The notes beneath the pieces are model-generated. The model saw only the letters and a list, made by a program, of their open reading frames with translations, did not search any database and had not been told where the DNA came from. A program made the translations under genes and the position numbers. Below, piece by piece: positions 9,175 through 50,022 of a stretch of DNA of 64,000 nucleotides (positions are counted from its first letter, which is position 1; each line of letters begins with the position of its first letter). Origin of the DNA: Paludibacteraceae bacterium (GTDB taxonomy: Bacteria; Bacteroidota; Bacteroidia; Bacteroidales; Paludibacteraceae); the NCBI GenBank assembly GCA_017632345.1, contig JAGBRL010000011.1, forward strand, positions 1 to 64,000. The letters are read 5' to 3'.

Positions 9175-9210
9175 GAAAAATGACGGTTTTTTAAAGACCG
9201 TCATTTTTTT
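9175..9210. terminator. Bidirectional terminator between deoC and the polyprenyl synthase gene
   Basis: The stem AAATGACGGT / ACCGTCATTT (9178-9187 with 9197-9206) is flanked by A-rich sequence on the left and a T run on the right, so it can terminate both converging genes. Confidence 0.8.
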
Positions 9211-10172: not shown

Positions 10173-10366
10173 CTTTTTATTTATTTTCAATCAGTCTAAA
10201 ATTCCTACAAATATAGTGATTTATCGTAAATATTTAGTTTTACTTGATATTTTATTATTTCATAAATTTGGCTTTTATTTCTTGTTTGTTCTTTTTTGTC
10301 TAAAATATTAAGATTTTTGTTTTTGTAAAACGTTATTATGAAATCTCTTTTTCTTACTTTTGTTAA

Positions 10367-10411
10367 TGCAATTTTATGTAATTTATAGCTCGTAATTTAT
10401 ATAGGTTGCTT
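10367..10411. repeat. Possible degenerate copy of the dispersed inverted repeat
   Basis: TGCAATTTTATGTAATTTA (10367-10385) is imperfectly mirrored by TAATTTATATAGGTTGCTT (10393-10411), resembling the type B arms (GCAACTTCTATAAATTA). It lies directly upstream of polA. The match is weak in this AT-rich context. Confidence 0.35.
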
Positions 10412-10440
10412 CGGTTTAAGAAATATTTGAAATTTTGTAT

Positions 10441-13206: not shown

Positions 13207-13214
13207 AAAAATAT

Positions 13215-13244
13215 AAAGGGACGTAAATTTTACGTCCCTTTTTT
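13215..13244 (+). terminator. Terminator after polA
   Basis: AAAGGGACGTAAA (13215-13227) pairs with TTTACGTCCCTTT (13229-13241) and runs into a T tract. The first parS-like palindrome begins at 13244. Confidence 0.8.
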
Positions 13245-13259
13245 GTTCCACGTGGAACA
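13244..13259. promoter_or_regulatory. parS-like centromere site 1
   Basis: TGTTCCACGTGGAACA, a perfect 16-bp palindrome matching the parS sequence bound by ParB in several bacteria (consensus TGTTTCACGTGAAACA). It is downstream of dusB and polA, which converge here. Confidence 0.8.
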
Positions 13260-13262
13260 TTA

Positions 13263-14246
13263 TTATACATCGAAATTTTCTTTTATGCTGTCCATAATTT
13301 TAAACAGTTCTTCTTTTGTTTCTGCTTTTAGCATAGCTATTTTTGTTTGTTTAAAATTATCTATACCTTTAAAGAGTGGGGAAGCGGCTATATGTCTTCT
13401 TGAGTGTGTTATGCCTCTTCGTTCATCAAGCCACTTTACATTATTTTCTACCTGTTGTTTTAAAATATTTAAATAAAATTCAAATGGCTTTTTATCTATT
13501 TTTTTACCTGTTTCAAGATAATATTTAATATCTTCAAATATCCATGGCTGACCTATACTTCCGCGTCCTATCATTACAGCATCTACACCATAAATTTCAA
13601 AACACTCTTTTGCACGTTCTGGAGTAGTTACATCTCCGTTTCCTATTATCGGAATTTTTATTCTTGGATTAGCTTTCACTTCGCCTATAAGAGTCCAGTC
13701 TGCTTCTCCTGTGTACATTTGAGAACGAGTTCTTCCGTGTATTGCTAAAGCTTTAGCTCCGCAGTCTTGTATTTGTTCTGCTAAAGTTGTTATGATTTTA
13801 CTGTTTTCATCCCATCCTAGACGAGTCTTTACAGTAACAGGTTTATTTACTGCTTTTACTACTGCCTTGACTATTTCTAATAATTTTGGAACATCTTTTA
13901 AAAGTCCTGCACCTCCGCCTTTACCAGCAACCTTTTTAACAGGACAGCCAAAATTTAAATCTATTATATCAGGATTAGCCTCTTCTGCACGTTTAGCTGC
14001 TTCGGCTATTGGTTCTGGTTCTCTGCCATATAATTGTATTACAACCGGACGTTCTTCTTCGTGTATAGTAAGTTTTTCTTTTGTTCTTTGTATATCTCTA
14101 ATTAGAGCATCTGCAGAAATAAATTCTGAATATACCATATCTGCCCCGAAACCTTTACATAATAATCTAAAAGCAGGGTCAGTAACATCTTCCATTGGTG
14201 CTAAAAATAGAGGATGTTTATTAAATTTTATATTATCTATTTGCAT
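13263..14246 (-). CDS. dusB: tRNA-dihydrouridine synthase
   Basis: An FMN-dependent enzyme that reduces specific uridines in the tRNA D-loop. 327 residues, TIM barrel with a C-terminal helical domain. MEDVTDPAFRLLC near residue 18 is the Dus signature, the catalytic cysteine is C101 in DLNFGCPVKK, and GNGDVTTPE and AVMIGRGSIGQPWIF form the phosphate-binding part. Which uridine is modified cannot be read from sequence; dusB is the common name in this phylum. Flanked by parS-like palindromes on both sides. Confidence 0.92.
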   Translation of the reverse strand: MQIDNIKFNKHPLFLAPMEDVTDPAFRLLCKGFGADMVYSEFISADALIRDIQRTKEKLTIHEEERPVVIQLYGREPEPIAEAAKRAEEANPDIIDLNFGCPVKKVAGKGGGAGLLKDVPKLLEIVKAVVKAVNKPVTVKTRLGWDENSKIITTLAEQIQDCGAKALAIHGRTRSQMYTGEADWTLIGEVKANPRIKIPIIGNGDVTTPERAKECFEIYGVDAVMIGRGSIGQPWIFEDIKYYLETGKKIDKKPFEFYLNILKQQVENNVKWLDERRGITHSRRHIAASPLFKGIDNFKQTKIAMLKAETKEELFKIMDSIKENFDV

Positions 14247-14259
14247 ATTTTATAAGATA

Positions 14260-14275
14260 TGTTCCACGTGGAACG
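14260..14275. promoter_or_regulatory. parS-like centromere site 2
   Basis: TGTTCCACGTGGAACG, with the same 14-bp palindromic core GTTCCACGTGGAAC as site 1. Located just upstream of dusB. Confidence 0.78.
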
Positions 14276-14300
14276 TGTTAATATTTTATATAATTTATTT

Positions 14301-14316
14301 TGTTCCACGTGGAACG
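14301..14316. promoter_or_regulatory. parS-like centromere site 3
   Basis: TGTTCCACGTGGAACG again, identical to site 2 over 16 bp and 41 bp from it start to start. Located between dusB and the U32 peptidase gene. Confidence 0.78.
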
Positions 14317-14324
14317 TTATGTTT

Positions 14325-15593
14325 TTATTGATTATTTGGTACTTCTGAAGCATCTACTAATTTATATAATTTATCAGAAGGTCTTATTTTGCAAGGAACT
14401 GCAATAGAAAATAATTCACCTCTTTCACATCTGTCAGCTTCTTTATAATCTACTTGCATATTTTCGGCTTTTAATTCTATTACTCCTGTTGTTGGTCCCA
14501 TTATTAGTAATTCGTCTCCTTTGTTAACTCCGAATTTAGTTTCTACTAAAAATTCAGCAACTCCAAGTTTTGAAAAATATTTCATTCCTTTTCCTATATA
14601 TACTTTTCTTTTTGTAGCTTCAGAACCGTAAGTGGAACTCCATTCTCCTAATCGTTGACCTAAATAATAACCATTCCAGAAACCTCTGTTGAATACAGTC
14701 TTTAATCTTTCGTCCCAATTATTTATTTTTTCTTCGCTGAAAGTTCCGTCTATGTATGAATTAATCGCTTCGTTGTAACATTCCACAACTGTCTTCACAT
14801 ATTCAGGTCCTCTTGCTCTTCCTTCTATTTTTAATACTCTTACTCCAGAATCTATTAGTTTATTTAGAAAATGGATAGTTTTTAAGTCTTTAGGCGACAT
14901 TAAAAATTTATTGTCAACTTTTATTTCTATATCTCTTTCATCATCTATAAGTCTGTAACTGTGTCTGCATACCTGATAACATGCTCCTCTGTTTGCAGAA
15001 GCGTTTAGTTCGTGCAGACTCATATAACACTTGCCGGAAATAGCCATGCATAAAGCTCCGTGACAGAACATTTCTATTTTTATCAATTCTCCCTTTGGAC
15101 CTTTAATTTGCTCTTCGTTTATGGCTTTGTATATAGCTGCTACTTGATCCATGTTGAGTTCGCGAGCCAAAACAACTACATCTGCAAATTGAGCGTAAAA
15201 TTTTAAGGCTTCAACATTAGAAATGTTTAACTGGGTCGAAAGATGTACCTCTACACCTTGCTGAAAAGCGTAAAGCATGGCGGCTACGTCTGCCGCTATT
15301 ATCGCTGATACCGCAACCTCTTTTGCAGTGTCTATGATTTCACGCATAAGAGCAAGGTCGTCGTTATACATTACCGTGTTTAATGTCAAATAACTTTTAA
15401 CTCCGTTCTCTTTGCAAATTTTTACTATTTCACGCAAATCGTCCGTTGTGAAATTACTTGCTGAACGTGAACGCATATTCAGTTTTTCTATACCGAAATA
15501 GACTGAATTGGCTCCTGCCTGTATGGCTGCTTGCAGACTTTCGTATGAGCCTACAGGAGCCATAATTTCAAATTCTTCTCTTTTATAGTTCAT
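14325..15593 (-). CDS. Peptidase U32-family RNA hydroxylation protein (TrhP/RlhA-like)
   Basis: 422 residues. Family members once called collagenase-like peptidases act as prephenate-dependent RNA hydroxylases (TrhP on tRNA wobble uridine, RlhA on 23S rRNA). Seen here: the N-terminal barrel start EIMAPVGSYESLQAAIQAGA, and a cysteine-rich stretch (C177, C182, C189, C205, C209) within MFCHGALCMAISGKC and RGACYQVCRH that fits an Fe-S cluster site. A C-terminal beta-barrel follows (about 335-415). At 422 residues it is nearer the short TrhP form than RlhA. Which RNA it modifies is not decidable here. Confidence 0.85.
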   Translation of the reverse strand: MNYKREEFEIMAPVGSYESLQAAIQAGANSVYFGIEKLNMRSRSASNFTTDDLREIVKICKENGVKSYLTLNTVMYNDDLALMREIIDTAKEVAVSAIIAADVAAMLYAFQQGVEVHLSTQLNISNVEALKFYAQFADVVVLARELNMDQVAAIYKAINEEQIKGPKGELIKIEMFCHGALCMAISGKCYMSLHELNASANRGACYQVCRHSYRLIDDERDIEIKVDNKFLMSPKDLKTIHFLNKLIDSGVRVLKIEGRARGPEYVKTVVECYNEAINSYIDGTFSEEKINNWDERLKTVFNRGFWNGYYLGQRLGEWSSTYGSEATKRKVYIGKGMKYFSKLGVAEFLVETKFGVNKGDELLIMGPTTGVIELKAENMQVDYKEADRCERGELFSIAVPCKIRPSDKLYKLVDASEVPNNQ

Positions 15594-15705
15594 ATATTGA
15601 TATTTTTATTATTTTCTAAAATAGGGTAGTGCAAACCTATTTTTAAAAAGCACTTTGCAAAGGTATTACTTTAATTGTGATTTTATAGAGATTGTAAAAG
15701 CAAAA

Positions 15706-15737
15706 AAATAAAAGACAACGTCAATCGTTGTCTTTTC
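15706..15737 (-). terminator. Terminator of the uvrC-dtd unit
   Basis: AAAAGACAACG (15710-15720) and CGTTGTCTTTT (15726-15736) form an 11-bp stem with a 5-nt loop. On the minus strand a T-rich run follows, so it ends the transcript from dtd. Confidence 0.8.
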
Positions 15738-15768
15738 TCTATCTTTTTTTATATTTTCAAGGAAAATT

Positions 15769-16221
15769 TTATTCTCTGTTCTGTGAATCTATCCATATCG
15801 TGGTAGGACCGTCATTAAGAAGTTCTACTTTCATGTCTGCCCCGAATACTCCTGTTTTAACTTCTTTTCCTAAATTTTCGCTTACTTTCTTACAAAACTT
15901 TTCATACATAGGAATGGCAAAGTCAGGTTTTGAAGCTTTTATGTAAGATGGCCTGTTTCCTTTTTTTGTTAGTGCATGAAGCGTGAATTGACTTACTACT
16001 AATATTTCTCCGTCCATATCTATAACAGACTTGTTCATCACGCCGTTTTCATCTTCAAAAATTCTGATGTTGACTATTTTGTTAGCGAGCCAGTCTATAT
16101 CATCGTCATTGTCTCTATCTTCTATTCCTACAAAAACTAGAAGACCTTTTTTTATTTCAGATTTAATTTTGCCATCTACAGTAACAGAAGCATGCGTTAC
16201 TTTTTGAATTACAATTCTCAT
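15769..16221 (-). CDS. dtd: D-aminoacyl-tRNA deacylase
   Basis: Hydrolyses D-amino acids (and glycine) mischarged on tRNA. 150 residues, full length. The N-terminus MRIVIQKVTHASVTVDG, the SQFTLHA motif near residue 80 that contributes the catalytic Thr, and the C-terminal LLNDGPTTIWID loop (the GP-motif region) are all present. It overlaps the uvrC stop by 4 bp and is translated from the same minus-strand message. Confidence 0.96.
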   Translation of the reverse strand: MRIVIQKVTHASVTVDGKIKSEIKKGLLVFVGIEDRDNDDDIDWLANKIVNIRIFEDENGVMNKSVIDMDGEILVVSQFTLHALTKKGNRPSYIKASKPDFAIPMYEKFCKKVSENLGKEVKTGVFGADMKVELLNDGPTTIWIDSQNRE

Positions 16222-18029
16222 ATTTCGTTATTAAAATGTTTATAAACTATATTTGCTTTAGAAATTCCGATTTCATCGGCTATTTCTTCTATCGTAAGTT
16301 CTTTTATACGCTTTACGCTTTTGAATTTTTTAAGAAGTATTTCTTTTGTTTTTGGACCTATGCCTTTTATGTCAAGTTCAGATTTAATCTGACTTTTGCT
16401 TCTTTTTTCTCTGTGAAATTTTATTGCAAATCGATGAACTTCATCTTGCATATTTGCAAAAAACTTGAAAAGTTGGTCGCTGGGATCTAATCCTATTACC
16501 ATCGGCGGAAATCCGAAAAGAATCTCTCTTGTCTTATGTTTTGAATCTTTTGCAAGTCCGGCTATAGGTATGTTGAGTTTTAATTCATCTTCTACAACCT
16601 GACGTATGATTTCCATCTGTCCTATGCCGCCGTCCGCCACAATCAAGTTTGGAAGTTTTTCTCCCTCGTCCATCATTCTCCTGTATCTTCTGAAAACAAC
16701 CTCACGCATGGAGGCGTAGTCGTCAGGACCTTCCACAGTTTTTATTATATATTTTCTGTAATCTTTTTTCGATGGTTTCGCCATTTTGAAAACAACGCAC
16801 GCAGCCACCGCATCAGAACCTTGTATGTTTGAATTGTCAAAACATTCTATATGTGCCGGAAGCTCTTCAAGTCTAAGCCTGTTCTGAATCTCTTTCATGA
16901 GTTTTGTGGCACGTTGCTCAGGATTAAATTTTTCCATCTGCTTCATCCTGTCAAACTTATACTGTTTAACATTTTGCTGAGACAATTCTAAAAGCTTCTT
17001 TTTATCGCCTCTCTGAGGTATTGTGAACGATACATTTTCTATATCGAAACCAATTTCAAAAGGAACTATTATCTCTCTGGACTTGCTTCCGAACCTTTCT
17101 CTCATTTCTACAACTGCGCTTGCAAGTATTTCCTCTTTCTCTTCGTCTGTTCTTATCTTATATTCGAAAGTGTAGGCCTGTGATATAGTTCCGTTTGTCA
17201 CTTTCAGAAAATTCACAAATGCTTCGTCGTCATCTATCTCTATTGCGAACACGTCTATATTTGTGAGAGCAGGATTTACGATAGTGGATTTAGAACGATA
17301 TTTTGCGATGGAATCGAGTTTTTCTTTTGCAATCTGCGCATCTTCAAAACGTAATTCTTCTGCGGCTTTCATCATCTCTTTTGTGAGATAATCTTCTATA
17401 ACTTCAATTTCTCCCTTGAGTATATATTTAATCTCGCTTATGTTCTTGTTGTATTCCTCTTCGCTTTGCAATCCTTCACAGCATCCCTTGCATTTTTTTA
17501 TGTGGTACTGCAGACAAACTTTATGTCTTTTTTGTCCGATGGATTCGGGAGAAAGATTCAAATTGCAAGTTCTGAGAGAGTATAAGTTGTGTATAAGTTC
17601 TAGCACTGTCTTCATTGCCGGAATGTATGTGTAGGGTCCGAAATATCTTGAACCGTCTTTCACTACATTTCTGGTTTTAAATACTCGCGGAAAGTGTTCG
17701 TTCTTTACGCATATCCATGGATAGGTTTTGTCGTCCTTCAGCAATATGTTGTAACGAGGCTGATGTTTTTTTATCAGGCTGTTTTCAAGAAGAAGCGCGT
17801 CTTGTTCTGTTTGGACAACTATGTATTTTATGTCCGCTATTTGTTTCACAAGCACACGTACTTTTGGCGAATCATGAAATTTGTTAAAGTACGAAGAGAC
17901 ACGTCTTTTCAAATTTTTTGCTTTGCCTACATAAATAATCTCTTCTTTACTGTTCAGATATTGATATATGCCCGGACTTTCTGGAAGAGAGAGTACAATC
18001 TCTTTTATGCGAGTATTTTCTTTTTCCAT
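16218..18029 (-). CDS. uvrC: Excinuclease ABC subunit C
   Basis: The nuclease of nucleotide excision repair; it incises on both sides of a lesion bound by UvrB. 603 residues. An N-terminal GIY-YIG nuclease (GIY at 20-22, YVGKAKNLKRR from 33) makes the 3' cut. A UVR motif lies near 215-245 (LRFEDAQIAKEKLDSI), then the RNase H-like domain with HIECFDNSNIQGSDAV and VADGGIGQ for the 5' cut, then a C-terminal helix-hairpin-helix pair (IKGIGPKTKEILLKKF). First gene of the uvrC-dtd unit. Confidence 0.97.
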   Translation of the reverse strand: MEKENTRIKEIVLSLPESPGIYQYLNSKEEIIYVGKAKNLKRRVSSYFNKFHDSPKVRVLVKQIADIKYIVVQTEQDALLLENSLIKKHQPRYNILLKDDKTYPWICVKNEHFPRVFKTRNVVKDGSRYFGPYTYIPAMKTVLELIHNLYSLRTCNLNLSPESIGQKRHKVCLQYHIKKCKGCCEGLQSEEEYNKNISEIKYILKGEIEVIEDYLTKEMMKAAEELRFEDAQIAKEKLDSIAKYRSKSTIVNPALTNIDVFAIEIDDDEAFVNFLKVTNGTISQAYTFEYKIRTDEEKEEILASAVVEMRERFGSKSREIIVPFEIGFDIENVSFTIPQRGDKKKLLELSQQNVKQYKFDRMKQMEKFNPEQRATKLMKEIQNRLRLEELPAHIECFDNSNIQGSDAVAACVVFKMAKPSKKDYRKYIIKTVEGPDDYASMREVVFRRYRRMMDEGEKLPNLIVADGGIGQMEIIRQVVEDELKLNIPIAGLAKDSKHKTREILFGFPPMVIGLDPSDQLFKFFANMQDEVHRFAIKFHREKRSKSQIKSELDIKGIGPKTKEILLKKFKSVKRIKELTIEEIADEIGISKANIVYKHFNNEI

Positions 18030-31850: not shown

Positions 31851-34025
31851 ATGAGAAGAATAGTTGCATTTATATTGTTTATGTCTCTTTTTTGCAATGT
31901 GCCTGCGGAGATGATAAACAGCACAGATTTTGAGGCGTTAGATTGTGTTCCTGCTACGCGTGATTTATGGAAGGCGGAGGGTTTCTTGCCTGGCACGTGG
32001 GATAATGGTCTTGCTGACCGTACTATGGTTGATGATTCGGCGGTTGCGGTTTCCGGCACAAAGTCGCTAAGAGTTCTTTATCCTAAAGGTAAATATGGCA
32101 CGTCGGACAACGGAGCGCAGGTGGAACTGAAGTTTGATCCGCGCAGGGAGGCTTTCGCTTCTTACTGGCTGCGTTTCTCGGAGGATTTCAGTTTTGGCTC
32201 TGCAAGCGAGGGCGGAAAATTGCCGGGTCTTACGGGTGGCGACAATTGTTCTGGCGGCTCGGCGTGCGACGGCACTAATGGTTTCTCCGCTCGGCTGATG
32301 TGGAGAACGGGCGGAAGTTTGGTGCTCTATCTTTATCATATGGATAAGCCTGATAAGTATGGAGAGGATTATGAACTTGCTTATCCCGACGGCTCTGCGG
32401 TGATTGTCGAAAGGGGAGAGTGGATTCATGTGGCTGAGCGAGTGAGGATTAATACGGATGGAGAGTCTTACGACGGCGAGGTGGAAATATGGGTGAATGG
32501 TGTGCGGACGCTCCTCCTCGACAGTCTGCGTTTCACTTCTAATGGTGATATGGTTGACAAATTTTATATCTCAACTTTTCATGGAGGCTCTTCGGCTGAT
32601 TGGGCTCCGGAGAATGATTGCCATATATGGTTCGATGATATACGTATCGGAACTGTTTATGGAGATGTGGCTTTCAGAGAATGTTCTAAGCCGGATTTGG
32701 GCGCCGACCGTGCTCTTTGTGCTGAAGAGACCGTGGTTTTGAAGACTGAAGAAAAGAAGGGAGAGAGATACTCTTGGTCAAAAGACGGCTCGCTCATTGG
32801 CAATGGGGCTTCTTTGCAACTTTCGGAGGCTGGCTTGTATGTGCTGACCGTGGATAGTGCGTGGTGCTCTAAAAGGGATACTGTTGTGGTTTCTGAAAAA
32901 ATTTTGACGGATCTGGGCAACGACAGGTCTATTTGTTCCTCTTCTTTCTTGAAAATTTCTTCTAATGTGCAGGGTGAAGGTCTCTCATACGCATGGGAGA
33001 AAGATGGCGCACCGGCTGGAGAAGGGGAGTGCCTGATGGTAAAGGACGCGGGTGTTTATAGACTTACGGTTTCGGCAGAGGGTTGTGAACCGTCTGCTGA
33101 TGAGGTGAAACTCTCTTCCGGTCTGCTTTCTGTGGCAGATGTAAATGGCGCTGTGGGAGAACCTTTCACGCTGAAGGTGACGGATGGTGGTTCTAATTAT
33201 GGCTGGTATAGTGAGGAGGGCGATTTGCTGAATGTGGGCGCGGAATATGACGCTGTTTTAGAAGAGGGCAGACATCTTTTATTTGTGAAGGATATGGATG
33301 CGTTTTCTGGAAGTGTTGGAATGAAGAAATTAACTGTGGCTAAGTCTTATACTTCTGCGGCTTTGGACAGAAAGATGAAGTTTGAAGTTTTCAGATTTCT
33401 CTCGGTAGATTCTGTTTCTGTCTATTTGGTAGATGAGCAGGATGTGGTAATTCGTGTGCTGGACTCAGACGAGACGGTTCTGTATCAGACGGAGAGCAAA
33501 CGGCTTAAAGCGGGCGTTAACAGGATTGCGGTGAATGCGGAGCTTCTGCCGGGAATCTATTTTATGGATGCGTATGGCTCTACTGGAAAACTTCGCCATT
33601 CCAACGAACTTGATGATGTTAAGTTCCCTTACGAGATAGAGGGCGTAATCTCTCTTCTTGGTTCTAACTTGACGTGGATAGACAATAAGCCGTGGTATCT
33701 GTTTTTTTATGACTGGAAGGTCTCCGCAGGTAATAATTGTGCCGCCGCTCCTGTCTTTGTGGAGGGAAAGGCAGATACAGATGTGCGGAATGTGAAGGAG
33801 AGCGGACTGAAAGTCTTTCCTTCGTTAACTAATGATTTCACAAAGGTTTGCGGATTGTCTGGCTCTGAGATAATAGAGGTTTTTGACGAATTGGGTAATT
33901 TGATTCGCTGCAAGATTGATAAGGAGGCTGATTGCGCTACTGTCAGTTTTGAATATGCAGGTGTTTATTTCTTAAAAATATCTGATAAAGGTATGACGCA
34001 AATATTTAAAATAGTGAAAGTGTGA
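31851..34025 (+). CDS. Secreted PL14-like polysaccharide lyase with Ig-like repeats and T9SS tail
   Basis: 724 residues. Signal peptide about 1-19. Residues about 22-285 resemble PL14 (alginate-lyase-type jelly roll): SYWLRFSEDFSFG, GGKLPGLTGGDNCSGG, NGFSARLMWR, LYLYHMDKPDKYGED and KFYISTFHGGSSADWAPE in the family order. Two or three Ig-like segments follow (about 290-500), each with a Gly-rich turn and YVLTV or YRLTV, then a C-terminal sorting domain (about 645-724: LKVFPSLTNDF, GVYFLKIS). Probably exported by T9SS. Substrate (alginate, glucuronan or another uronic polymer) is not decidable. TATATTTG at 31802-31809 is a possible -7 element. Confidence 0.8.
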   Translation: MRRIVAFILFMSLFCNVPAEMINSTDFEALDCVPATRDLWKAEGFLPGTWDNGLADRTMVDDSAVAVSGTKSLRVLYPKGKYGTSDNGAQVELKFDPRREAFASYWLRFSEDFSFGSASEGGKLPGLTGGDNCSGGSACDGTNGFSARLMWRTGGSLVLYLYHMDKPDKYGEDYELAYPDGSAVIVERGEWIHVAERVRINTDGESYDGEVEIWVNGVRTLLLDSLRFTSNGDMVDKFYISTFHGGSSADWAPENDCHIWFDDIRIGTVYGDVAFRECSKPDLGADRALCAEETVVLKTEEKKGERYSWSKDGSLIGNGASLQLSEAGLYVLTVDSAWCSKRDTVVVSEKILTDLGNDRSICSSSFLKISSNVQGEGLSYAWEKDGAPAGEGECLMVKDAGVYRLTVSAEGCEPSADEVKLSSGLLSVADVNGAVGEPFTLKVTDGGSNYGWYSEEGDLLNVGAEYDAVLEEGRHLLFVKDMDAFSGSVGMKKLTVAKSYTSAALDRKMKFEVFRFLSVDSVSVYLVDEQDVVIRVLDSDETVLYQTESKRLKAGVNRIAVNAELLPGIYFMDAYGSTGKLRHSNELDDVKFPYEIEGVISLLGSNLTWIDNKPWYLFFYDWKVSAGNNCAAAPVFVEGKADTDVRNVKESGLKVFPSLTNDFTKVCGLSGSEIIEVFDELGNLIRCKIDKEADCATVSFEYAGVYFLKISDKGMTQIFKIVKV

Positions 34026-34202: not shown

Positions 34203-34781
34203 ATGAAAAATTTAGTATTCGCGACTAATAATGCTCATAAAGTGGAAGAGGTGCAGCAGAAGCTAAACGGTCTGTTCACTCTTAAAACTTTGTCTGAAGT
34301 AGGGTGTAACGAAGATATTCCGGAAACGTCAGACACGATAGAGGGCAATGCTTTGCAAAAGGCTCGTTACCTTTGGGAACATTATGGTTGCGACTGCTTT
34401 GCCGACGACACAGGGCTTGAGGTTGAGGTGCTTGGCAATGCTCCTGGTGTGCATTCTGCACGTTATGCAGGAGAGGCAAAAGACTCTGAGGCGAATATGG
34501 ACAAACTACTGTCCGAACTTGATGGCAAAGAGAACAGAAAGGCTCGTTTTCGTACTGTTATCGCATTGATAATAAATGGAGAAGAACATCTGTTTGAAGG
34601 AATAGTCAACGGCAGAATATTAACAGAACGGCATGGAGGCAAAGGTTTTGGTTATGACCCTATATTTGCTCCGGAAGGAAAAAATCTCTCTTTCGCGGAA
34701 ATTTCTATGGAAGAGAAGAACTGCATAAGCCACCGAGGCCGTGCCGTAGAAAAACTTTTAGAGTTTCTTAAAAATTCATGA
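34203..34781 (+). CDS. rdgB: XTP/dITP diphosphatase (non-canonical purine NTP pyrophosphatase)
   Basis: Removes ITP, dITP and XTP from the nucleotide pool. 192 residues, Ham1/RdgB fold. Family motifs in order: [11 protein letters not shown] (6-16), [25 protein letters not shown] (about 65-89) and [12 protein letters not shown] (about 148-159), plus SHRGRA near the C-terminus. The stop codon overlaps the porZ start (34778-34781), so translation is probably coupled. First gene of the rdgB-porZ-tsaE operon. Confidence 0.95.
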
Positions 34782-37069
34782 TTATGAATAAGATAAAATG
34801 TCTCATCTCGTCGCTTTCTTTGCTTTGCCTGATGCAATTATGCTACGGACAGGTGGCTATGCACAGTTGGGCTTCGCACTTTTCGTACAGCAACACAAAA
34901 CAGGTTGCTATTACTAACGATAAGGTGTACGGGCTGTCTTATGGAGCTTTGTATTCTGTGGACAAAAAGCATGAAAGCATAGAAACTTATTCTAAGATTA
35001 CCGGACTTTCTGACGGAACAATCGACCTAATAAAAGGAAATGGCAACACGTTAATCGTTGTTTATGCAAACATGAACATAGATTTGATTGTTAAAGATGA
35101 GGTTTTTAATATATCTGACCTTAAACGTAAAGATATTTCGGGAAAAAGGGTCTATGATATCTGTTTTCATGACAGATATGCGTATCTCTCTTGCGGCTTC
35201 GGAATAGTGGCTCTTAATCTTGATAAAAAGGAAATAGCAGATTCGTATTTTATCGGTGAAAACGGAAGTATGGCTGCCGTGCTGTCTTCTACTATTGCAG
35301 GGGATTCTATTTATGCGCTTATGAGCGACAAGACAATAAAGGCGGCAAATGTAAATTCTAATCTTCTGAATTTTGAAAACTGGAAAGTTTTGTCTTCTGA
35401 TGATGTTGAGACTGACTCGCCTTCCAAAATTGTCTCTTTCGGCAAAAATAATATGTTCTTGATCGACTCGGATGTGGTGTATAATCGTCAAGATGGCAAT
35501 TGGAAGGTCTTTTTGAATGGAAAATTCTCTAATATTGAGATTTGGAACGATTATGTGACGATCTCTTCCACGAAAGAGAATTTGATAAAAATCTTTGACA
35601 AGGATTTGAAAATTTGTGACAGTATAAACGTTGCGAATTTCAACGTCATTTATGATAATGCATCTAAATGCGCATGGAGCGCGCACGGTTGCTTATACAA
35701 GATAGAGAACGGGGCTATAAGCAACAGTTATATACCTAACGGACCTACTTATAAGGATATGCTTTTTGCGAAAGTCCGTAACGGACGTCTTATAACTGGG
35801 TATGGAGAAGGTTTTTCGACGGCCGGCATTCTTCAGATTTATGATGGTAATAATTGGAAAAACATTACGCAGGCGAATATAGGTGAGGAGTACGCGCCGT
35901 ATTTTTTCACGCTGCTGGATGCGGAGGTTGACCCTAGGGACCCTCGCAGAATGTATCTCGCTACTTGGAGGTCTGTCTTTGAACTTTATGATGATGTTGT
36001 AGTGAAACGATATCTCACCGGAGAGTCGTCTCTCGAATTGTGCACCGCGGTTGGTGACCCTAACGTTATTTTGATTGACGGATTGACATTTGATAAAGAC
36101 AATAATCTTTGGATGCTGAATATGCAGGCTGGAGACTTGATTCATGTTAAAGACACTGACGGTAACTGGCATCACACATCTTATAACAATTCAAAACTGC
36201 AGAACACGGCAACTGCTCGTCCTCCTTTTATCTCTTCTGACGGGAAAAAGTGGATATTGTTTCCTCGTTTGGGAGTGGGTGTGTTTGTCATTGAAGATAA
36301 CGGCACTCCGCTTAATTTCAGCGATGACAAAACAAAATTGTTCACATCTTTCAGCGACGGCTCTCCTGAAACTATCGTGCCGAGCACATACCGCTGCATT
36401 GCAGAGGATAAGAACGGCGATATATGGTTAGGTACTGACGTCGGTCCGCTAATATTTAAAAATACTGAAGAGGTGATGAATAGCGGCTATACTGTTGAAC
36501 GCATCAAAATAACTCGTGAGGATAATGCCGCATTCGCAGATTATCTGCTTGCAACGGAACAAATAAACGCGATTGCTGTCGATGGTGCAAATCGTAAGTG
36601 GATAGGAACTGCCTCTTCTGGTGTTTATCTGCTTTCTGATGACGGACAAGAGACTATATATCATTTCACTACGGAAAATAGTCCTCTGACTTCTGACATT
36701 ATCACAGCTATTGACATTGACAAAGAAAATGGTATTGTCTATATAGTGACTTCTGAAGGACTTTTCTCTTTTGGTAGCGACGCTTCTGAGGGCAGAGAAA
36801 CTTACGACGATGTTTATGTATATCCTAACCCTGTGCGTCCGGACTTTTACGGAGATATAACCGTGACAGGGCTGATGGAGAACAGCGAAGTTAGAGTGAC
36901 AACTTTGAACGGAGAGCTGATTTATCACGGACTTTCAAATGGTGGAACGTTTATATGGGACGGCAAGTCGGTGTCTGGCAGACGTGTGGCTTCTGGCATA
37001 TATCTGATATTTGCCACAACATCAGACGGAACAGAAAAAATGGTTTCTAAGATTGCATTTGTCAAATGA
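34778..37069 (+). CDS. porZ: T9SS component PorZ
   Basis: 763 residues. Signal peptide about 1-25 (QLCYGQ). The start [32 protein letters not shown] and the pattern [16 protein letters not shown] match PorZ, the attachment-complex protein of the type IX secretion system that presents A-LPS to the sortase. Two beta-propeller regions (two-component-regulator-propeller-type repeats such as [17 protein letters not shown]) are followed by a C-terminal type A sorting domain (about 685-763: [21 protein letters not shown]), which PorZ characteristically keeps. An ATG at 34784 is an alternative start. A plain propeller protein is the main alternative. Confidence 0.85.
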
Positions 37070-37735: not shown

Positions 37736-39235
37736 ATGGCACAAAAAAAGATTATCATAATAGGAGGAGGCGTGGCAGGTTTGTCGGCTGGCATCTATGC
37801 GCGACTTAATGGTTTTGACTCTGAGATTGTTGAAATTCATTCCTTGGCAGGCGGGCTTTGTACTGCGTGGTACAGAAAACAGTATAGGTTTGACTATAGT
37901 GTTCAATGGCTTGTGGGAACTCGTTACGGAACGTTTTTCAACACTTATAAGGAGACTAACGTAATAAACGACGATGTTAAAATTCTTAATGCAGATTTTC
38001 ATACGCGAATGGTGCTTCCTGACGGATCTGATTTTCTTGTTTATGCCAATATAGACAAATGGCAGGAGTATTTGCTTGAAAAGGCTCCGGAAGATGAAAA
38101 AGCAATAAAGAAAATGTGCAAGGATATGCACAGCTGCCGTTATCTGAACTCTTTCGACCTTGCGCCTTCTTTAAGAAATCCGCTTCACTACATAAAGGCT
38201 CTTTTTGATAGTTTCCCTACTCTTATGACTATTGTGAAGTACAGAAAGAAATCTTTTTATGATTATGTTTCAAATTTGAAATTTAAAAATGACTGGCTAA
38301 GAAACTCGTTGCTGAGTCTGTACGGAAACACTGACTTTTCGGCGGTTGCTTTTCTCCTGATTTTAGGATGGTACACAAATAAGAACGCAGGCTATCCTAT
38401 CGGCGGCTCTCTGGCTCTTGCTGAACGAATGTACAAGCGATACACAGACTTGGGCGGTAAATTCACTTTCAAAAAAGAGGTTAAAGACATTATAGTGGAA
38501 AATAACGTCGCAAAGGGTGTCGTGCTTGATGATGGCACTGTGCTGGAGGCTGACTATGTGATAAGTGCAGGAGATGGTTACAACACTATTTTTAATTTGC
38601 TTAAAGGTAAATACACATCTTCTAAGGTTAAAAGCAGTTACGAAAAATGGAGCCCGTTCTGCTCGTTTGTGCAGGTCTCTTTTGGTGTGAACAAAAAACT
38701 TGAAACTAAATATCCTGTTCAGTTGGTTCTTGCTACCGGACGAAAAATAGGTAGCACGGTGTTGTCTCAGTTTTACAGAATTTTGAACTATAACTTTGAC
38801 AACACAATGGCGCCAGAAAACAAAACGTGTATTGTGATACGTTTTGACAGCCCTTATGACCAATGGAAAAACATGGACAGAAACAGCGAAGAGTATAAGC
38901 AGGAAAAGGAACGTATTAAAGCTGACGCTCTGAAGATTTTGGATGAAAACTATCCTGGAAGCTCTGAATTTGTGGAGATATGCGATATTGCTACACCTCT
39001 TACTACGGTTCGGTACACAAAGGCTTGGAAAGGTTCTTACGAAGGGTTCAGACCTACATCAAAAAACATTACAGATCAGTTAAGTCTGACTCTTCCGGGA
39101 CTTGACAAATTTTACATGGTAGGGCACTGGCTCTTTCCTGGAGGCGGTATTCCGCCTTCCATACAGTCAGGCAAATGGGCGATTCAGATGATATGTAAAA
39201 AAGAGAAGGTTAAGTTCATCAATAATGACAAATAA
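37736..39235 (+). CDS. FAD-dependent phytoene-desaturase-like oxidoreductase
   Basis: 499 residues. N-terminal dinucleotide-binding motif IIIIGGGVAGLSAGIYARLNGF (GxGxxG at 9-14), then GGLCTAWYRKQYRFDYSVQWL, typical of the CrtI/phytoene desaturase and related amine-oxidase-like flavoproteins. The C-terminus has FYMVGHWLFPGGGIPPSIQSGKWA, the second FAD-binding segment. It stands alone with a terminator at 39241-39276, and no carotenoid genes are near, so a carotenoid role is uncertain; retinol-saturase-like reactions are another option. Confidence 0.8.
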   Translation: MAQKKIIIIGGGVAGLSAGIYARLNGFDSEIVEIHSLAGGLCTAWYRKQYRFDYSVQWLVGTRYGTFFNTYKETNVINDDVKILNADFHTRMVLPDGSDFLVYANIDKWQEYLLEKAPEDEKAIKKMCKDMHSCRYLNSFDLAPSLRNPLHYIKALFDSFPTLMTIVKYRKKSFYDYVSNLKFKNDWLRNSLLSLYGNTDFSAVAFLLILGWYTNKNAGYPIGGSLALAERMYKRYTDLGGKFTFKKEVKDIIVENNVAKGVVLDDGTVLEADYVISAGDGYNTIFNLLKGKYTSSKVKSSYEKWSPFCSFVQVSFGVNKKLETKYPVQLVLATGRKIGSTVLSQFYRILNYNFDNTMAPENKTCIVIRFDSPYDQWKNMDRNSEEYKQEKERIKADALKILDENYPGSSEFVEICDIATPLTTVRYTKAWKGSYEGFRPTSKNITDQLSLTLPGLDKFYMVGHWLFPGGGIPPSIQSGKWAIQMICKKEKVKFINNDK

Positions 39236-39240
39236 AAAAA

Positions 39241-39282
39241 CAGGCTAAACGTCGAAATCACAGATGTTTAGCCTGTTTTTAT
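39241..39282 (+). terminator. Terminator after the FAD oxidoreductase (bidirectional)
   Basis: CAGGCTAAAC (39241-39250) pairs with GTTTAGCCTG (39266-39275), preceded by a run of A and followed by T residues. It can serve the convergent DUF4384 gene as well. Confidence 0.8.
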
Positions 39283-39296
39283 TTATAAGTGCCTAT

Positions 39297-40169
39297 TTAC
39301 TGTACAACAAAAACTTTTCTATAAAGTCCAACCGCGCACTTTGCAGAAGGCTCAATTCCCTTAGTCTGAAGCATTTTGTTCACAAGCCTCAAGTCGTAAG
39401 GCTCTTCCATCGCGATAAGAACCATGCAGTCTGTGCCTTTCGGCTCTGCAAATTCTATAGGAAACTCCTTCAAATCTACTGTTGAGTTGGCAGGAATCAT
39501 CAGATGAGATAAAGTGTGAGCCTCGTCAATAGGAAGACAGTCGAAAAGGTTGCCATTTGCATCAATATCGATAACATTCACGTAAAGCATCTTGTCGCTG
39601 TTATTCTTAATGCGGAAAAAAGCCTGGTCGCCCAGTTTCACGTTAGGAGCAGCAATCTTGCCTGTAGCCCTTTCTATCACTTCAAATGTGACCGCATAAT
39701 CCGTATTGGCGTTATTTATGGCAGCAAGCTTATCACCCTTCTGCTTTGCGAGAATAGTTTTCGCAATGTCATTCTCTATAATATCTCCGCGATAGGTACA
39801 ACCTGCAGCCTCATGGCTTATCTTGTCAGAACCGCCGTTAAAAAGAGATTTTGAGGCATGAGCCATAAACTGAGAAGTTGCAGATTTCTGATTGCCTTTG
39901 ACGTTGTCAATTACCGCGCTAACCTTCTTGGCGTCGCTTTTACCCACGGAATAGACCTTTTCCGCCTTTCTGTCCAATATGGAAAGAGCCGAATTTTCAG
40001 CAACCTTAATCACGTCATCAGCAGAAAGCTTCATACGTTTCTGTAATTGAGACCAAGAACCGTCTTTTTGAACCTCAACTTTCCCTATCACAGAATACAC
40101 ATATAAGTCCTGCGCTGTCGCAACCATAGCGAAAAGAGCCGCATATACTAAAAAAATCAATCGTTTCAT
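39297..40169 (-). CDS. Secreted DUF4384-type protein (partner of the caspase gene)
   Basis: About 290 residues. Signal peptide at the N-terminus (MKRLIFLVYAALFAMVATAQ); an ATG 12 bases earlier (40181) is also possible. Residues about 20-75 resemble a FecR-like start (YVYSVIGKVEVQKDGSW). The C-terminal half (about 155-285: VTFEVIERATGKIAAPNVKLGDQAFFRIKN, YVNVIDIDANGNLFDCLP) resembles DUF4384, which often accompanies caspase-like peptidases. It lies 36 bp after the WG-caspase gene on the same strand and is probably co-transcribed. Role unknown; a cofactor or substrate of the protease is an inference. Confidence 0.72.
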   Translation of the reverse strand: MKRLIFLVYAALFAMVATAQDLYVYSVIGKVEVQKDGSWSQLQKRMKLSADDVIKVAENSALSILDRKAEKVYSVGKSDAKKVSAVIDNVKGNQKSATSQFMAHASKSLFNGGSDKISHEAAGCTYRGDIIENDIAKTILAKQKGDKLAAINNANTDYAVTFEVIERATGKIAAPNVKLGDQAFFRIKNNSDKMLYVNVIDIDANGNLFDCLPIDEAHTLSHLMIPANSTVDLKEFPIEFAEPKGTDCMVLIAMEEPYDLRLVNKMLQTKGIEPSAKCAVGLYRKVFVVQ

Positions 40170-40205
40170 AACATTAATCATTTTAAACTGTTAAACAAAA
40201 ATTCA

Positions 40206-42221
40206 TCATTTGCCGAACAAAATAAAGTTGCCCTGCTTGTTTTCGAAAATAGGCATCTGCTTGCCGTTAGTCGCTTTACGAACTGTTTCGCGTATATATT
40301 TTTCAAGATTATCGAGAGTGATGTTGCCATCCGCGTCAACAGCCTTTCCTTTAAGACCTTCGATAAGCGCCTTGGTAAATATTCCGTTAGACCATTTTTC
40401 GCTTTCGTTAGACTTCTGACTTTCTGTGCTTGAGTAGAAACCTATCACGCCAGGTTCAGAGAAAGCGAAGTTTTCTGTAGTTGACTTCTGTCCGTACAAA
40501 GCTCCTGAATGGCACGCGTCCATAAAGATTAGCACCTTGCATTTCTTGTCTTTAAGACGTCTTGTAGCAGAACGAATATCGTCAAAATTCACGGCAGAAG
40601 AGAACAAGTCGTCACTTTCCGCATTCACAGAAAGGAAATAAGTGTCGTTGCCCTCTTTGCTTCCGTGTCCTGAGAAAAAGAGCATCACCACATCACCCTG
40701 TTCCACAGAATTTACAATATTAGATAGCCCCTTCTTGATGTTTTTGTCGGTCGCCATCTTATCCGTTATAAGCACCGGCTTTTTCAGCGTCTGATAATGT
40801 TTCTGCACATTGCAAGCAGAGATAGCATTGATAAAATCATTAGCGTCCTTAGAAGCGTGCTGAAGTTTCAAGTCTGCCTGATTATAGTCGCTTACCCCGA
40901 CTGCCATAACGTGCAAATTAGGCTTTGGCATGTTTCCTTTGTAGTGCAGCAGCACCACAGCGGGGTCGCTGTTCTGTCCGTTAGCATCTTTAGCTATAAG
41001 CTGAACACGGCAATCCTCCACATTTCTCGGAAGGGTGAGTGACATTTGGTTCCCTACTCGCTTGACACCCTTTGTTCTTGGCTGAAGCTCGCCGTTGATG
41101 TATGCGATAATCTCTGCAGGCTTTCCGTCAGCAGTCTTTGCCTCGTACGTGAACGTAACGTTTGATGCTGTATAAGAATCTCCGTTCTTAGGAGTCAAAA
41201 TATTAATAGTTGGAGGTTTTGTTCCTACACCTGCATTGTTATACACCGGAGCATTATAGGCAGGCTCTGTATTCTGAGCCAAATTGCTGTTAGACCCCGA
41301 CGCAAGAAGCGACTGTTTATGCTTTCCGTCATCATAGTTCGCCAAAGTATTAGCCGCAGGTAATTTGCTATTGGACTTGCTCTGCCAAGCAAAACCGGCA
41401 GACTTAGCGGCGGCAGCCTTTGCATAAGACGGTTTAACGATATATTTGCCCAGCCTGTTTATACAGCCCCATTTAGCTCCGTACTTCACAACTGCAAATG
41501 GGTGGTTGTCGCTGAATGTGTAAGAAGGGTCATATCCTGTGAAATTGGGCTTCACTACCCAATTACCGACAGAATTAACGAAACCGTATTTCTTTAACTG
41601 CACATCGTATCCCACATATATGCTCTTTCCGAGAGGAGTGTAGGCAGCCCATTCCGTTCCGGCATTTTTGGCCTCGTTCTTATCAACAAAAACAGGCTTC
41701 ACAACAAACTTGCCCTTCTTGTCTATGCATCCCCATACTCCTTGATACTTCACTAGGGCGTATTTCTTGTCCTTTTCCAAATCCATCTCAGAATCAACGT
41801 CATCAAAAAGAGGCTTGATGACCCAGTCTCCGTAATAGTTAACAAAACCCCACTTCTGAGAAGGAATGTCAAAACCGCAGAAGATGAAGTTCGAGACAGC
41901 GCTTTTTTTCTTCATCTCTAATGCGGCAGTAACCGCGCTCGCTGAACTCTTAAAGACAGGTTTAGAGATGAAATTGCCCTTTTCATCGATGCTGCCCCAA
42001 TATCCATCTTTCTTTACTATGGCGTAATTACGCACTCTTGAGAAAGAATTGTATCTGTCACAATCATCAAAAGTAGGTTTTATCACCCACACACCTTTAG
42101 AGACAAATCCCCATTTTTTTGTTTTATTGTCCTGCATTGCCTGATGTTGAGAAAAAACAGAGAAGCAAAAAAACATCATAACAAATAATAACGGGATCTT
42201 TATATAACCAACCTTTATCAT
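40206..42221 (-). CDS. Secreted WG-repeat plus caspase-like (peptidase C14) protein
   Basis: 671 residues. Signal peptide about 1-24 (FCFSVFSQ). Six WG/YG-type repeats follow (KWGFV at 36, YWGSI at 74, KWGFV at 123, VWGCI at 163, KYGFV at 211, KWGCI at 250), arranged as three alternating pairs. A low-complexity linker (about 280-335) leads to an Ig-like segment (about 336-428: PPTINILTPKNGDSY) and a C-terminal caspase fold (about 435-671). The catalytic dyad appears intact: H519 in FFSGHGSKEG and C570 in FMDACHSGALYG. The enzyme should be exported; no membrane anchor or T9SS tail is seen. Co-transcribed with the DUF4384 gene. Confidence 0.88.
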   Translation of the reverse strand: MIKVGYIKIPLLFVMMFFCFSVFSQHQAMQDNKTKKWGFVSKGVWVIKPTFDDCDRYNSFSRVRNYAIVKKDGYWGSIDEKGNFISKPVFKSSASAVTAALEMKKKSAVSNFIFCGFDIPSQKWGFVNYYGDWVIKPLFDDVDSEMDLEKDKKYALVKYQGVWGCIDKKGKFVVKPVFVDKNEAKNAGTEWAAYTPLGKSIYVGYDVQLKKYGFVNSVGNWVVKPNFTGYDPSYTFSDNHPFAVVKYGAKWGCINRLGKYIVKPSYAKAAAAKSAGFAWQSKSNSKLPAANTLANYDDGKHKQSLLASGSNSNLAQNTEPAYNAPVYNNAGVGTKPPTINILTPKNGDSYTASNVTFTYEAKTADGKPAEIIAYINGELQPRTKGVKRVGNQMSLTLPRNVEDCRVQLIAKDANGQNSDPAVVLLHYKGNMPKPNLHVMAVGVSDYNQADLKLQHASKDANDFINAISACNVQKHYQTLKKPVLITDKMATDKNIKKGLSNIVNSVEQGDVVMLFFSGHGSKEGNDTYFLSVNAESDDLFSSAVNFDDIRSATRRLKDKKCKVLIFMDACHSGALYGQKSTTENFAFSEPGVIGFYSSTESQKSNESEKWSNGIFTKALIEGLKGKAVDADGNITLDNLEKYIRETVRKATNGKQMPIFENKQGNFILFGK

Positions 42222-42627: not shown

Positions 42628-43815
42628 ATGAAAAAATTATTTTTTTTGGCTTCTTTGGCTGCGTTAGTTGCTTGTAACAAGGAAGAAGGTTTAGAAAATG
42701 AACAGAACAACGATGTTCAGTTGAAAGAGTCAAATTGGGCAACAATGTCTGAGTTTAAGTTGGGTCATGTGGGCAAGGACTCTATGGTAGTTGTTAAACT
42801 TAACGGTGAAGTTGTTCACACTGAAGCGGGACCTACAGAAAACGCTTCTTTCCTAGGTGCTTCTTGGGGTAATTTGTCTAACGGAACTCGTGCGTCTTAT
42901 GATTTGAACGACTTTAACTATACAGTTGAGTATGTTCCGATGACGGGTAACTTTGACTTCACACACTATGAGAATGCGGTTCTTGCATTCGAAGATTTGC
43001 GCAAAGGCATTGACGCAGACTATAATGACTTTGTTGTGAAGGTGCAAACTGCTATGTTTGAACAGCAGACTTACGACACTACTTATGTGAAGGTAAATGG
43101 TAAGAAGAACGACAAATGTAAAGGTCATAAGAATGACAAAAACAAGACTCAGTGTGTTATCACTCCTGAGAATGTTGAGATTAAAGTAGCTTTCCAAAAC
43201 ATAAAGCCTATTGCTATGGGTGCTGAGTACAACATGGCTTTCGGTTGCCAGATTGTTGCTTTGCAGAAATGTTCAAACAAGGTTTTGGGTGTTAAGGAAG
43301 TTATCTTGTCTAAGGATGTTCGTAGCGAATACTTTAACGGCACTAAGGGTATGCTTAACACTGTTAACGAAAGTTCAGCTAAGAAGTTCAACATCAAGGG
43401 TTATGAAGTTGAAACAGATGTTTATTCTAAGAAAGACACTGTTATCGCTACTTTCGAAAACATGTTGCAGTGCGAAGTTAAGTTCCAGTTGATTTATTTC
43501 ATCGAAGTATATCCTTCTGACGGTTCTGCATCTTACAGAAACTATTCTGTTATCGTTAAAGACGAATGTTTCTTTGAAAACTTTGTAGACTTCATCAACG
43601 GTACAAACGGAGCTGCTTTGGGTCATGACAACTATGCTTTGGGTATCTATTTGCCTTACGGATGCGGATTTAAGTATCTTGCAGAAAAGGAAAGCGTTTT
43701 CGACGCTTATCCAGAGTTTAAAAATTGGTTGAATGGAAAATACAGTAAAAATCCTTTCGTTAACCCTAAGGAAGAATACATTTACAACGCTCCTGCAAAC
43801 AACGAAAATCTTTAA
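42628..43815 (+). CDS. LruC/DUF4842-like surface lipoprotein
   Basis: 395 residues. Lipoprotein signal MKKLFFLASLAALVAC with C16. The segment VLAFEDLRKGIDADYNDFVVKV (about 114-135) is the acidic FEDL..DxDYNDFVV motif of LruC/DUF4114-type calcium-binding domains. The C-terminal part (GHDNYALGIYLPYGCGFKYLAEKESVFDAYPEFKNWLNG) also fits LruC. A lysine/asparagine-rich loop (NGKKNDKCKGHKNDKNK, about 158-174) is unusual. Codon use is biased and the promoter is strong, suggesting abundant expression. Function unknown. Confidence 0.72.
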   Translation: MKKLFFLASLAALVACNKEEGLENEQNNDVQLKESNWATMSEFKLGHVGKDSMVVVKLNGEVVHTEAGPTENASFLGASWGNLSNGTRASYDLNDFNYTVEYVPMTGNFDFTHYENAVLAFEDLRKGIDADYNDFVVKVQTAMFEQQTYDTTYVKVNGKKNDKCKGHKNDKNKTQCVITPENVEIKVAFQNIKPIAMGAEYNMAFGCQIVALQKCSNKVLGVKEVILSKDVRSEYFNGTKGMLNTVNESSAKKFNIKGYEVETDVYSKKDTVIATFENMLQCEVKFQLIYFIEVYPSDGSASYRNYSVIVKDECFFENFVDFINGTNGAALGHDNYALGIYLPYGCGFKYLAEKESVFDAYPEFKNWLNGKYSKNPFVNPKEEYIYNAPANNENL

Positions 43816-48357: not shown

Positions 48358-48475
48358 TACCTTTGCCATAATAGATTCCGTGTCAATAGAAAAATTTTTT
48401 CAAGCAACACTAAGATAAGTGAATTTTTCTGATACGACAAAATCCTGAGTAACTTTTTGTTGCTCAGGATTTTAA
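48358..48475 (+). ncRNA. Possible small structured RNA or leader upstream of the CotH gene
   Basis: TACCTTTG (48358-48365) could be a -7 element. About 80 bp later a hairpin AATCCTGAGTAAC/GTTGCTCAGGATT (48441-48453 with 48459-48471) runs into TTTT. Between them GTGTCAATAGAAAAATT can pair with AATTTTTCTGATAC. The -33 box is badly spaced, so this is tentative. Confidence 0.3.
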
Positions 48476-48582
48476 AAAGTTTTTATAAATGTGGTGTTGC
48501 GGATATAAGGTATACAAAATTAGAACTTATGCGAATCGGGTTGAAAAAGATTGGAAATTTGGTATGGAAACGACATATAAAC

Positions 48583-50022
48583 ATGTACAATAACAAATTG
48601 TTATTATGCATGTTTACATTTGTGTTTATTCCTTTTTACGTTGAAGCATTTACAGAATCTGAATTGAATGAACTGAAAGGCTTGAACATTCCATTGTTTA
48701 TAATAGAGACAACGGATGGTGTAAATCCTAGTTGTGAATACATATCGCCACCAGAAGGGTGTATTGGCGAAACAATACAGAATAATGAGTATGTTACCGG
48801 TAGTTTGATTGTTATTTTGGAAAATGACACTGTGTATAATAGTGGTCGATATGTTGAAAATAAAGGAGGAATGAAACTCAAAATAAGAGGCAATACTAGT
48901 GCGTATACAGCGTATCCTCCTTATAAATTAAAACTTGAAAAAAAAGAAAATTTGTTTTTCCTGCATGAAAAGCCGAAAGAGAAAGAGTATGTCTTATTAA
49001 GAACAGCGTCATCCAACAGACTTAATCCTTTTTTAGGAAATAAAGTTGGAGAATTGTTAGGTGCTGATTGGCAACCTAAAAGTCAATTTGTAAACATAAT
49101 ACTCAACAATGAATATAGGGGGCTGTATTTGCTGTCTGATGTTATAAAAAAAGGCAAAAGTCATTGTGATATTTCTGCGTCGGGCTATCTTATGGAAAAC
49201 GATGCGTATTGGTGGGCAGATGAAGGGAAAACATTTCAAGGAAACTATCTTGCACGTTCATTAGGATATACATTTAAATATCCAGAAACTTTGAGCAATG
49301 AGGAGTTTGATTACATCAAAAATTATGTAATTTCTTTTGAAGAGGATTTGTATGCAGGTAAACCTGTGACAAAATGGATTGACTATGAGTCATTTGCAAT
49401 TTGGGTCCTGGCTCATGATCTTTTGGGGTCTGTTGACGGTGCGGGTTCAAACATATATATAACTAAATATGATAATACAGAAAACTCAAAACTTAGAATG
49501 GGGCCATTATGGGACTTTGATGGAATATTTCAGGAAGAAAACCTTTCTTCTATACACTTTAGTACCGGGTGTTTCTATTATCCTAAATTGTTCAAGTTGC
49601 AAGAGTTTTGCGGCATTTACTCAAGAAAGTGGCAAGAAATTAGGAATGTGTTATATGATGATATAATGAGCATGACTGATTCTATAGTGTCTAATTATGG
49701 AACTGCTATTGATCTAAGTCGTGATTATACTAGACGAATATGTGGAGTTAATTCTCCTAGCATAGAGTCGAATGTGACTGAAATTAGTGAATGGTTCTCG
49801 GAACGGATTAGTTTGATTGATGAGCTATCTGTAGATGTTGGTATTACGGCAGAAGAACCAATATGTGAAGAAATGAGAATATATGATTTTTCTGGTCGTT
49901 TATTGAACGTGGTTTCTGTAGATTTTTGTATTGAAAAACTTCAACTTTCTCCAGGGTTATATATTATGTGTTTTTATAACAATAATAATATTGTAGGTCG
50001 AAACAAAATTGTTATTTATTGA
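48583..50022 (+). CDS. Secreted CotH kinase family protein
   Basis: 479 residues from ATG 48583, where MYNNKLLLCMFTFVFIPFYVEAF gives a signal peptide; an earlier in-frame start at 48457 would remove it. The core (about 85-400) is a CotH-type atypical kinase: GGMKLKIRGNTSAYTAYPPYKLKLEKK is the N-lobe signature, and LRMGPLWDFDGIF with D311 and D313 the metal-binding motif. The C-terminus (about 425-479: MRIYDFSGRLLNVVSVD, SPGLYIMCFYNNNNIVGRNKIVIY) looks like the end of a T9SS sorting domain. Related proteins phosphorylate secreted proteins, but the substrate is unknown. An IS remnant begins one base after the stop. Confidence 0.82.
   Translation: MYNNKLLLCMFTFVFIPFYVEAFTESELNELKGLNIPLFIIETTDGVNPSCEYISPPEGCIGETIQNNEYVTGSLIVILENDTVYNSGRYVENKGGMKLKIRGNTSAYTAYPPYKLKLEKKENLFFLHEKPKEKEYVLLRTASSNRLNPFLGNKVGELLGADWQPKSQFVNIILNNEYRGLYLLSDVIKKGKSHCDISASGYLMENDAYWWADEGKTFQGNYLARSLGYTFKYPETLSNEEFDYIKNYVISFEEDLYAGKPVTKWIDYESFAIWVLAHDLLGSVDGAGSNIYITKYDNTENSKLRMGPLWDFDGIFQEENLSSIHFSTGCFYYPKLFKLQEFCGIYSRKWQEIRNVLYDDIMSMTDSIVSNYGTAIDLSRDYTRRICGVNSPSIESNVTEISEWFSERISLIDELSVDVGITAEEPICEEMRIYDFSGRLLNVVSVDFCIEKLQLSPGLYIMCFYNNNNIVGRNKIVIY

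Follow-up and report, generated by a model that had tools for sequence, protein, structure and literature searches.

Organization of the locus

The window (the whole stretch of DNA analysed, 64,000 nucleotides from a Paludibacteraceae bacterium; contig JAGBRL010000011.1 of assembly GCA_017632345.1) carries on its reverse strand a gene for an exported caspase, followed by a gene for a secreted DUF4384-like protein, hereafter the partner (Table 1). The coordinates (39297-42221) and the catalytic residues of the caspase (H519 and C570) given in a first-pass annotation of the DNA letters were exact; the caspase frame is 42221..40206. The gap between the two genes is 24 bases, or 36 when counted to Met5 of the partner. 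Partner homologues begin at this Met5; hence, position 40169 is probably the true partner start.

The gene upstream of the caspase gene is divergent, and a strong hairpin, which extends into the last bases of the convergent gene 37736..39235, follows the partner gene. The caspase and partner genes thus form a closed two-gene unit. In a promoter scan, sigma-70-like sites were no commoner than in shuffled sequences.

The genes around the pair are housekeeping and type IX secretion system (T9SS)-related genes; no toxin, immunity, or lysis gene adjoins the caspase gene, and no defence gene was recognised among the neighbours examined. The product of the divergent neighbour (42628..43815, plus strand), a putative lipoprotein, matches DUF4114 and DUF4842/LruC-type domains; the gene lies outside the conserved gene set described below. 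A PorZ-like T9SS component is encoded at 34778..37069 (plus strand; N-terminal beta-propeller, 129.8 bits), and a PL14-type polysaccharide lyase with a weak sorting-domain match is encoded upstream of it at 31851..34025. Given these two genes, the organism appears to run a T9SS. A CotH gene is also present in the window (48457..50022).

Table 1. Positions of the caspase and partner genes, their protein segments, and the terminator in the window.
Feature	Position	Strand	Remark
Caspase gene (exported WG-repeat / Ig-like / C14)	40206..42221	-	671-aa ORF
Signal peptide, residues 1-25, core 4-22, ...SVFSQ/HQ	42147..42221	-	Hydrophobic N-terminus kept in orthologues
Six WG repeats, residues 37-266	41424..42113	-	Three paired units in model
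Linker, residues 283-335	41217..41375	-	Mostly low model confidence
Ig-like segment, residues 336-430	40932..41216	-	Big_7 21.2 bits vs cut-off 24.1
C14 caspase domain, residues 433-671	40209..40925	-	Matches Arabidopsis metacaspase-4, MALT1, GSU0716
Catalytic His519 (SGHG)	40665..40667	-	Invariant in orthologues
Catalytic Cys570 (DACHSG)	40512..40514	-	Invariant in orthologues
Partner gene (secreted, DUF4384-like)	39297..40181	-	294 aa
Partner N-terminal beta domain, residues 26-96	39894..40106	-	Homologous to CHASE2-linked proteins across phylum
Partner loop, residues 115-134, holds GCTYRGD	39780..39839	-	pLDDT < 50
Arg131, near-invariant, candidate cleavage site (P1) or docking residue	39789..39791	-	
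DUF4384-like C-terminal domain, partner residues 181-260	39402..39641	-	
Intrinsic terminator hairpin + T-run, 3' of partner gene	39230..39280	-	-19.9 kcal/mol, z = -7.0

Domains and catalytic residues of the caspase

The signal peptide and the six WG repeats described in the first-pass annotation were both confirmed. Residues 4-22 form a hydrophobic, signal-type N-terminus, with no lipobox Cys in the signal peptide. W/YG repeat starts lie at residues 37, 75, 124, 163, 212, and 251; the WG_beta_rep match (PF14903) scored 83.6 bits against a cut-off of 25.6, five stretches passed singly, and the array was modelled confidently as beta-rich (pLDDT about 85-94). The Ig-like segment is also present, but its Big_7 match lies below the Pfam cut-off. 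The linker holds a conserved N-x-DDGK-x-K motif at residues 295-302, and the Lys-Gly of the Ig-like loop TKGVK (383-387) is invariant in all 13 Ig-containing caspases of the set. Both are possible self-processing or inhibitory elements.

The C-terminal domain belongs to Peptidase_C14 (72.8 bits against a cut-off of 21.4). Its model resembled Arabidopsis metacaspase-4 (6w8r; Z 21.7, rmsd 2.8 over 217 residues), MALT1 (3uo8; Z 19.6), and bacterial GSU0716 (PDB 3bij; Z 18.3). The dyad is intact, as claimed earlier, and in the aligned family set His and Cys are kept together with D568, two residues before the Cys, and D459 of a KDA motif. From what is known of metacaspases, D459 and D568 are presumably residues of the S1 pocket that select for Arg or Lys, and the protease is expected to prefer basic residues. 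Against the model for EACC1-associated caspases (NF047832), the protein scored 82.3 bits, below the curated cut-off of 140. The gene is single-copy and the sole C14 gene found in the window's genome.

Neither the caspase nor the partner matched the T9SS C-terminal sorting domain Por_Secre_tail at E<=1, and two neighbouring genes had weak matches in the same Pfam search. A role as T9SS cargo was rejected for this reason, and a periplasmic location is likelier than an extracellular one.

The partner protein

The partner had been described as the product of a secreted DUF4384 gene. Its signal-type N-terminus agrees with secretion, but the DUF4384 match (PF14326) reached 21.6 bits against a curated cut-off of 27, and the domain is better called DUF4384-like. 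A DUF4384 match at E<=1 was obtained for 11 of 16 members of the partner family. The partner model was weak overall (mean pLDDT 61), and a fold search with it yielded loose beta-sandwich matches only; solved structures searched with the partner sequence gave no meaningful match. FecR was considered as a label for the partner and discarded, as FecR was not among the matches listed at E<=1 for the partner or for its remote homologues. Against the LapA retention module, the partner scored an insignificant 13.5 bits (cut-off 50).

Co-occurrence of the caspase, the partner, and CHASE2

Orthologues were searched for in 358 genomes of the family, whose named records are metagenome-assembled genomes of Paludibacteraceae and other Bacteroidales. 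Several of these records are from rumen or horse faeces, and the host bacterium is of the gut type. The caspase was found in 37 genomes spread over seven genera. The reading frame is open and the H/C pair does not vary in these orthologues, which argues that the caspase gene is not a product of chance.

In the neighbourhoods of relatives, a conserved third gene of 360-450 codons adjoins the caspase or the partner; by Pfam, it encodes a CHASE2 protein. CHASE2 occurs in 55 of the 358 genomes, including all 37 with the caspase, and 36 of the 37 also have the partner; in G004, caspase and CHASE2 are present with no partner detected. Fisher p-values were about 1e-37 for caspase with CHASE2 and for caspase with partner, figures that overstate independence because the genomes are related and the caspase is confined to seven genera.

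Gene order within the set of three is not the same in g19/g27, g21, and G031. In genera g4 and g5, the partner lies on another contig than the caspase, and these unlinked partners may have other roles. In the window's genome, it is CHASE2 that lies elsewhere (C103:18559-19215, about 18 kb and 29 kb from the contig ends), which is why the first-pass annotation did not see it. Being kept together in genomes despite broken linkage, the three genes are good candidates for one system.

The CHASE2 protein of the window's genome (PF05226, 62.1 bits against a cut-off of 26.3) has transmembrane segments at residues 13-31, 287-305, and 318-336 by hydropathy. CHASE2 proteins of the set have one N-terminal and two to three C-terminal transmembrane segments, with no recognisable domain after the latter; hence, their likeliest outlets are periplasmic proteins. 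The gene has a CotH protein, a PD-(D/E)XK nuclease protein, and a nitroreductase as encoded neighbours. On this contig (G000:C103; L149 9299..10447, minus strand), the genome's only CHASE2 gene starts 2 bases after the CotH-kinase gene, whose product has a weak T9SS sorting-domain match.

The WG array had been proposed as the sensing part. The g21 caspases, which keep the partner and CHASE2, carry other or no recognisable N-terminal repeats. The array is thus not part of the module core, and the proposal was abandoned because caspases can retain the partner without retaining the array. The sensor of the module is likely CHASE2.

CHAT proteases in the place of the caspase

Eighteen genomes have CHASE2 without this caspase. 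A TPR-CHAT protease was found in 13 of them: in 12, the fetched loci place it near CHASE2 and a diverged partner, and in G251, it lies about 5 kb away. In two others (G109 and G226), another C14 gene adjoins CHASE2. Neither CHAT nor C14 was found in three: G091, which is 60% complete, and G120 and G184, in which CHASE2 lies near a contig end. TPR-CHAT genes next to CHASE2 and partner were seen in many g21 genomes and in g8 genomes, and most of the CHAT proteases keep the THG and SAC-x-TG motifs. TPR-CHAT and the caspase share the clan CD caspase fold and the place beside CHASE2 and partner, but they belong to different peptidase families.

Both kinds of locus are present in g21 (L101 and L102) and in G348, and CHAT was absent from the seven caspase genomes tested outside g21 (G000, G004, G005, G019, G027, G031, and G036). 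Of 22 control genomes, seven had CHAT but no CHASE2; CHAT alone therefore does not imply the module. At the g21 loci L101 (5695..18114) and L102 (308..8832), a caspase-partner pair lies beside a CHAT-CHASE2-partner set, together with an additional conserved gene of about 380 codons without a Pfam match. A distant operon (L211 of G503, 6941..16912) holds several C14 genes in a row by a divergent CHASE2-like gene.

The GxxxR loop of the partner

In an alignment of 37 non-redundant partner sequences (under 85% identity), R131 corresponds to Arg in 36 and to Lys in one, and only one other position of the protein is more conserved. The Gly four residues before it is near-invariant (34/36), and the residues around this GxxxR motif are variable. 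More distant partners, linked to CHASE2 in other families and classes and aligned independently, have an invariant G-x-V-x-R. Profile-profile comparison of the family with these distant partners (E 1.5e-11) aligned residues 5-134 and ended at the motif. Beyond it, the C-terminal parts differ: they are DUF4384-like in the family and weakly TPR-like in two distant partners. A conserved basic residue in a loop at the border of a constant and a variable domain, next to a protease expected to cut after basic residues, makes the partner look like a dedicated substrate. That it is the substrate and is cut at R131 is put forward as a tentative proposal, plausible but short of probable.

The motif could not be taken as simple proof of cleavage. 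At least one of C14 and CHAT accompanies it in G430, G527, G567, G541, and G630, and two distant genomes (G440 and G482) keep CHASE2 and a GxxxR partner with no C14 or CHAT detected. The arginine may thus bind CHASE2, or another protease may cut in G440 and G482. The distant CHASE2 neighbours at L201, L204, and L211 have no clear GxxxR motif, and two of these three loci are operons with caspases.

The loop may instead be a docking element for CHASE2, with the protease acting on other envelope substrates upon a signal from CHASE2 and partner. The loci of G440 and G482 favour docking, and so do Burkholderia operons free of caspase, in which a periplasmic LysM-FecR protein is paired with a CHASE2 kinase (PMC5192318); such a pairing therefore exists without a caspase. 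The BiofilmReg operon of Burkholderia resembles the present set in having a periplasmic partner with a CHASE2 sensor (a histidine kinase), but its output is a cytoplasmic kinase and regulator, and it has neither caspase nor CHAT (PMC5192318). Against docking, the motif lies in a predicted disordered loop that exactly borders the exchangeable domain, and a near-invariant basic residue fits the Arg/Lys preference reported for orthocaspases (PMC6426788). We consider docking alone somewhat unlikely.

Discussion

Judged from sequence, the caspase, the partner, and CHASE2 are likely to make up a three-part exported module with a working protease. The account that best explains the whole, to which we lean with modest confidence, is an envelope module of three parts in which CHASE2 gates cleavage of the partner. 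The three proteins would meet in the periplasm. CHASE2, whose extracytoplasmic domain is large and which lacks a cytoplasmic output domain, would sense a ligand or the state of the envelope. It would hold the N-terminal domain of the partner and control the access of the protease to it. The protease would cut after R131 and so separate the DUF4384-like domain from the N-terminal domain, and the WG and Ig parts might position the protease. The envelope proteolytic switch suggested in the first-pass annotation is partly retained in this account: the export signals, intact dyad, conserved partner, and membrane sensor fit it, but the extracellular setting that it also allowed is less likely than a periplasmic one.

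The caspase could also serve in cell death or fratricide, as a periplasmic protease that degrades envelope proteins of stressed cells or is directed against adjacent cells. Roles of this kind were proposed in a 2012 survey for those caspase homologues that have extracellular features (PMC3501461). The absence of an adjoining toxin, immunity, or lysis gene, the single copy, and the lack of a T9SS sorting domain on caspase or partner speak against these roles, and the gene is kept genus-wide with two partners even where unlinked, as expected of a regulatory set; we regard them as improbable. That the protein is a conventional intracellular caspase for defence against phage is very improbable: the caspase domain matches the PADLOC caspase model over the first 139 of 453 positions, a domain match alone with no defence context among the neighbours examined, but protease and partner carry signal peptides, the neighbours are housekeeping and T9SS-related genes, and the caspase is conserved in whole genera.

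The component domains of the gated module are all known already. CHASE2-caspase fusions are known in cyanobacteria (PMC2853523), and DUF4384 is found in some orthocaspases (PMC7475262, PMC6426788). In cyanobacterial CHASE2- or DUF4384-fused caspase homologues, e.g., a Trichodesmium CHASE2 protein, the same domains meet caspase-like domains; those proteins are fusions with a caspase part modelled as cytosolic (PMC3501461, PMC2853523, PMC7475262), whereas three separate proteins with an exported protease are encoded here. With orthocaspases and metacaspases such as GSU0716 and Arabidopsis metacaspase-4, the caspase of the window shares the C14 fold, the H/C dyad, and conserved Asp residues; it differs from them in being exported, in its WG array and Ig-like segment, and in its tie to CHASE2 and a DUF4384-like partner. 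In the LapD-LapG-LapA system, a receptor in the inner membrane governs the cleavage of an envelope protein, close to the N-terminus of the latter, by a cysteine protease of the periplasm. The mechanism proposed here may follow the same logic, by analogy only.

In the open-licence literature, we found no paper joining CHASE2, an exported caspase, and DUF4384, and no description of a three-protein set with an exported protease, of C14/CHAT exchange, or of the GxxxR loop. The set may represent an undescribed class of transmembrane signalling, in which a CHASE2 receptor without cytoplasmic output acts through an exported, interchangeable C14 or CHAT protease that cuts a dedicated partner of two domains at GxxxR in the periplasm; this generalization is doubtful at present.

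Most discussion of bacterial caspase homologues has treated them as proteases of death or defence inside the cell, and few of their natural substrates have been identified. The statement that they are usually studied as intracellular enzymes was nevertheless too strong, as many homologues in the 2012 survey had an N-terminal helix, maybe a signal peptide, and functions outside the cell were suggested there (PMC3501461). From the present set, a single substrate, cleavage residue, and regulator can be predicted for an exported caspase, and the same slot beside CHASE2 and partner is filled by two caspase-fold families, C14 and CHAT. If the proposed mechanism is true, the periplasm of these bacteria is a site of regulated proteolysis of the caspase type.
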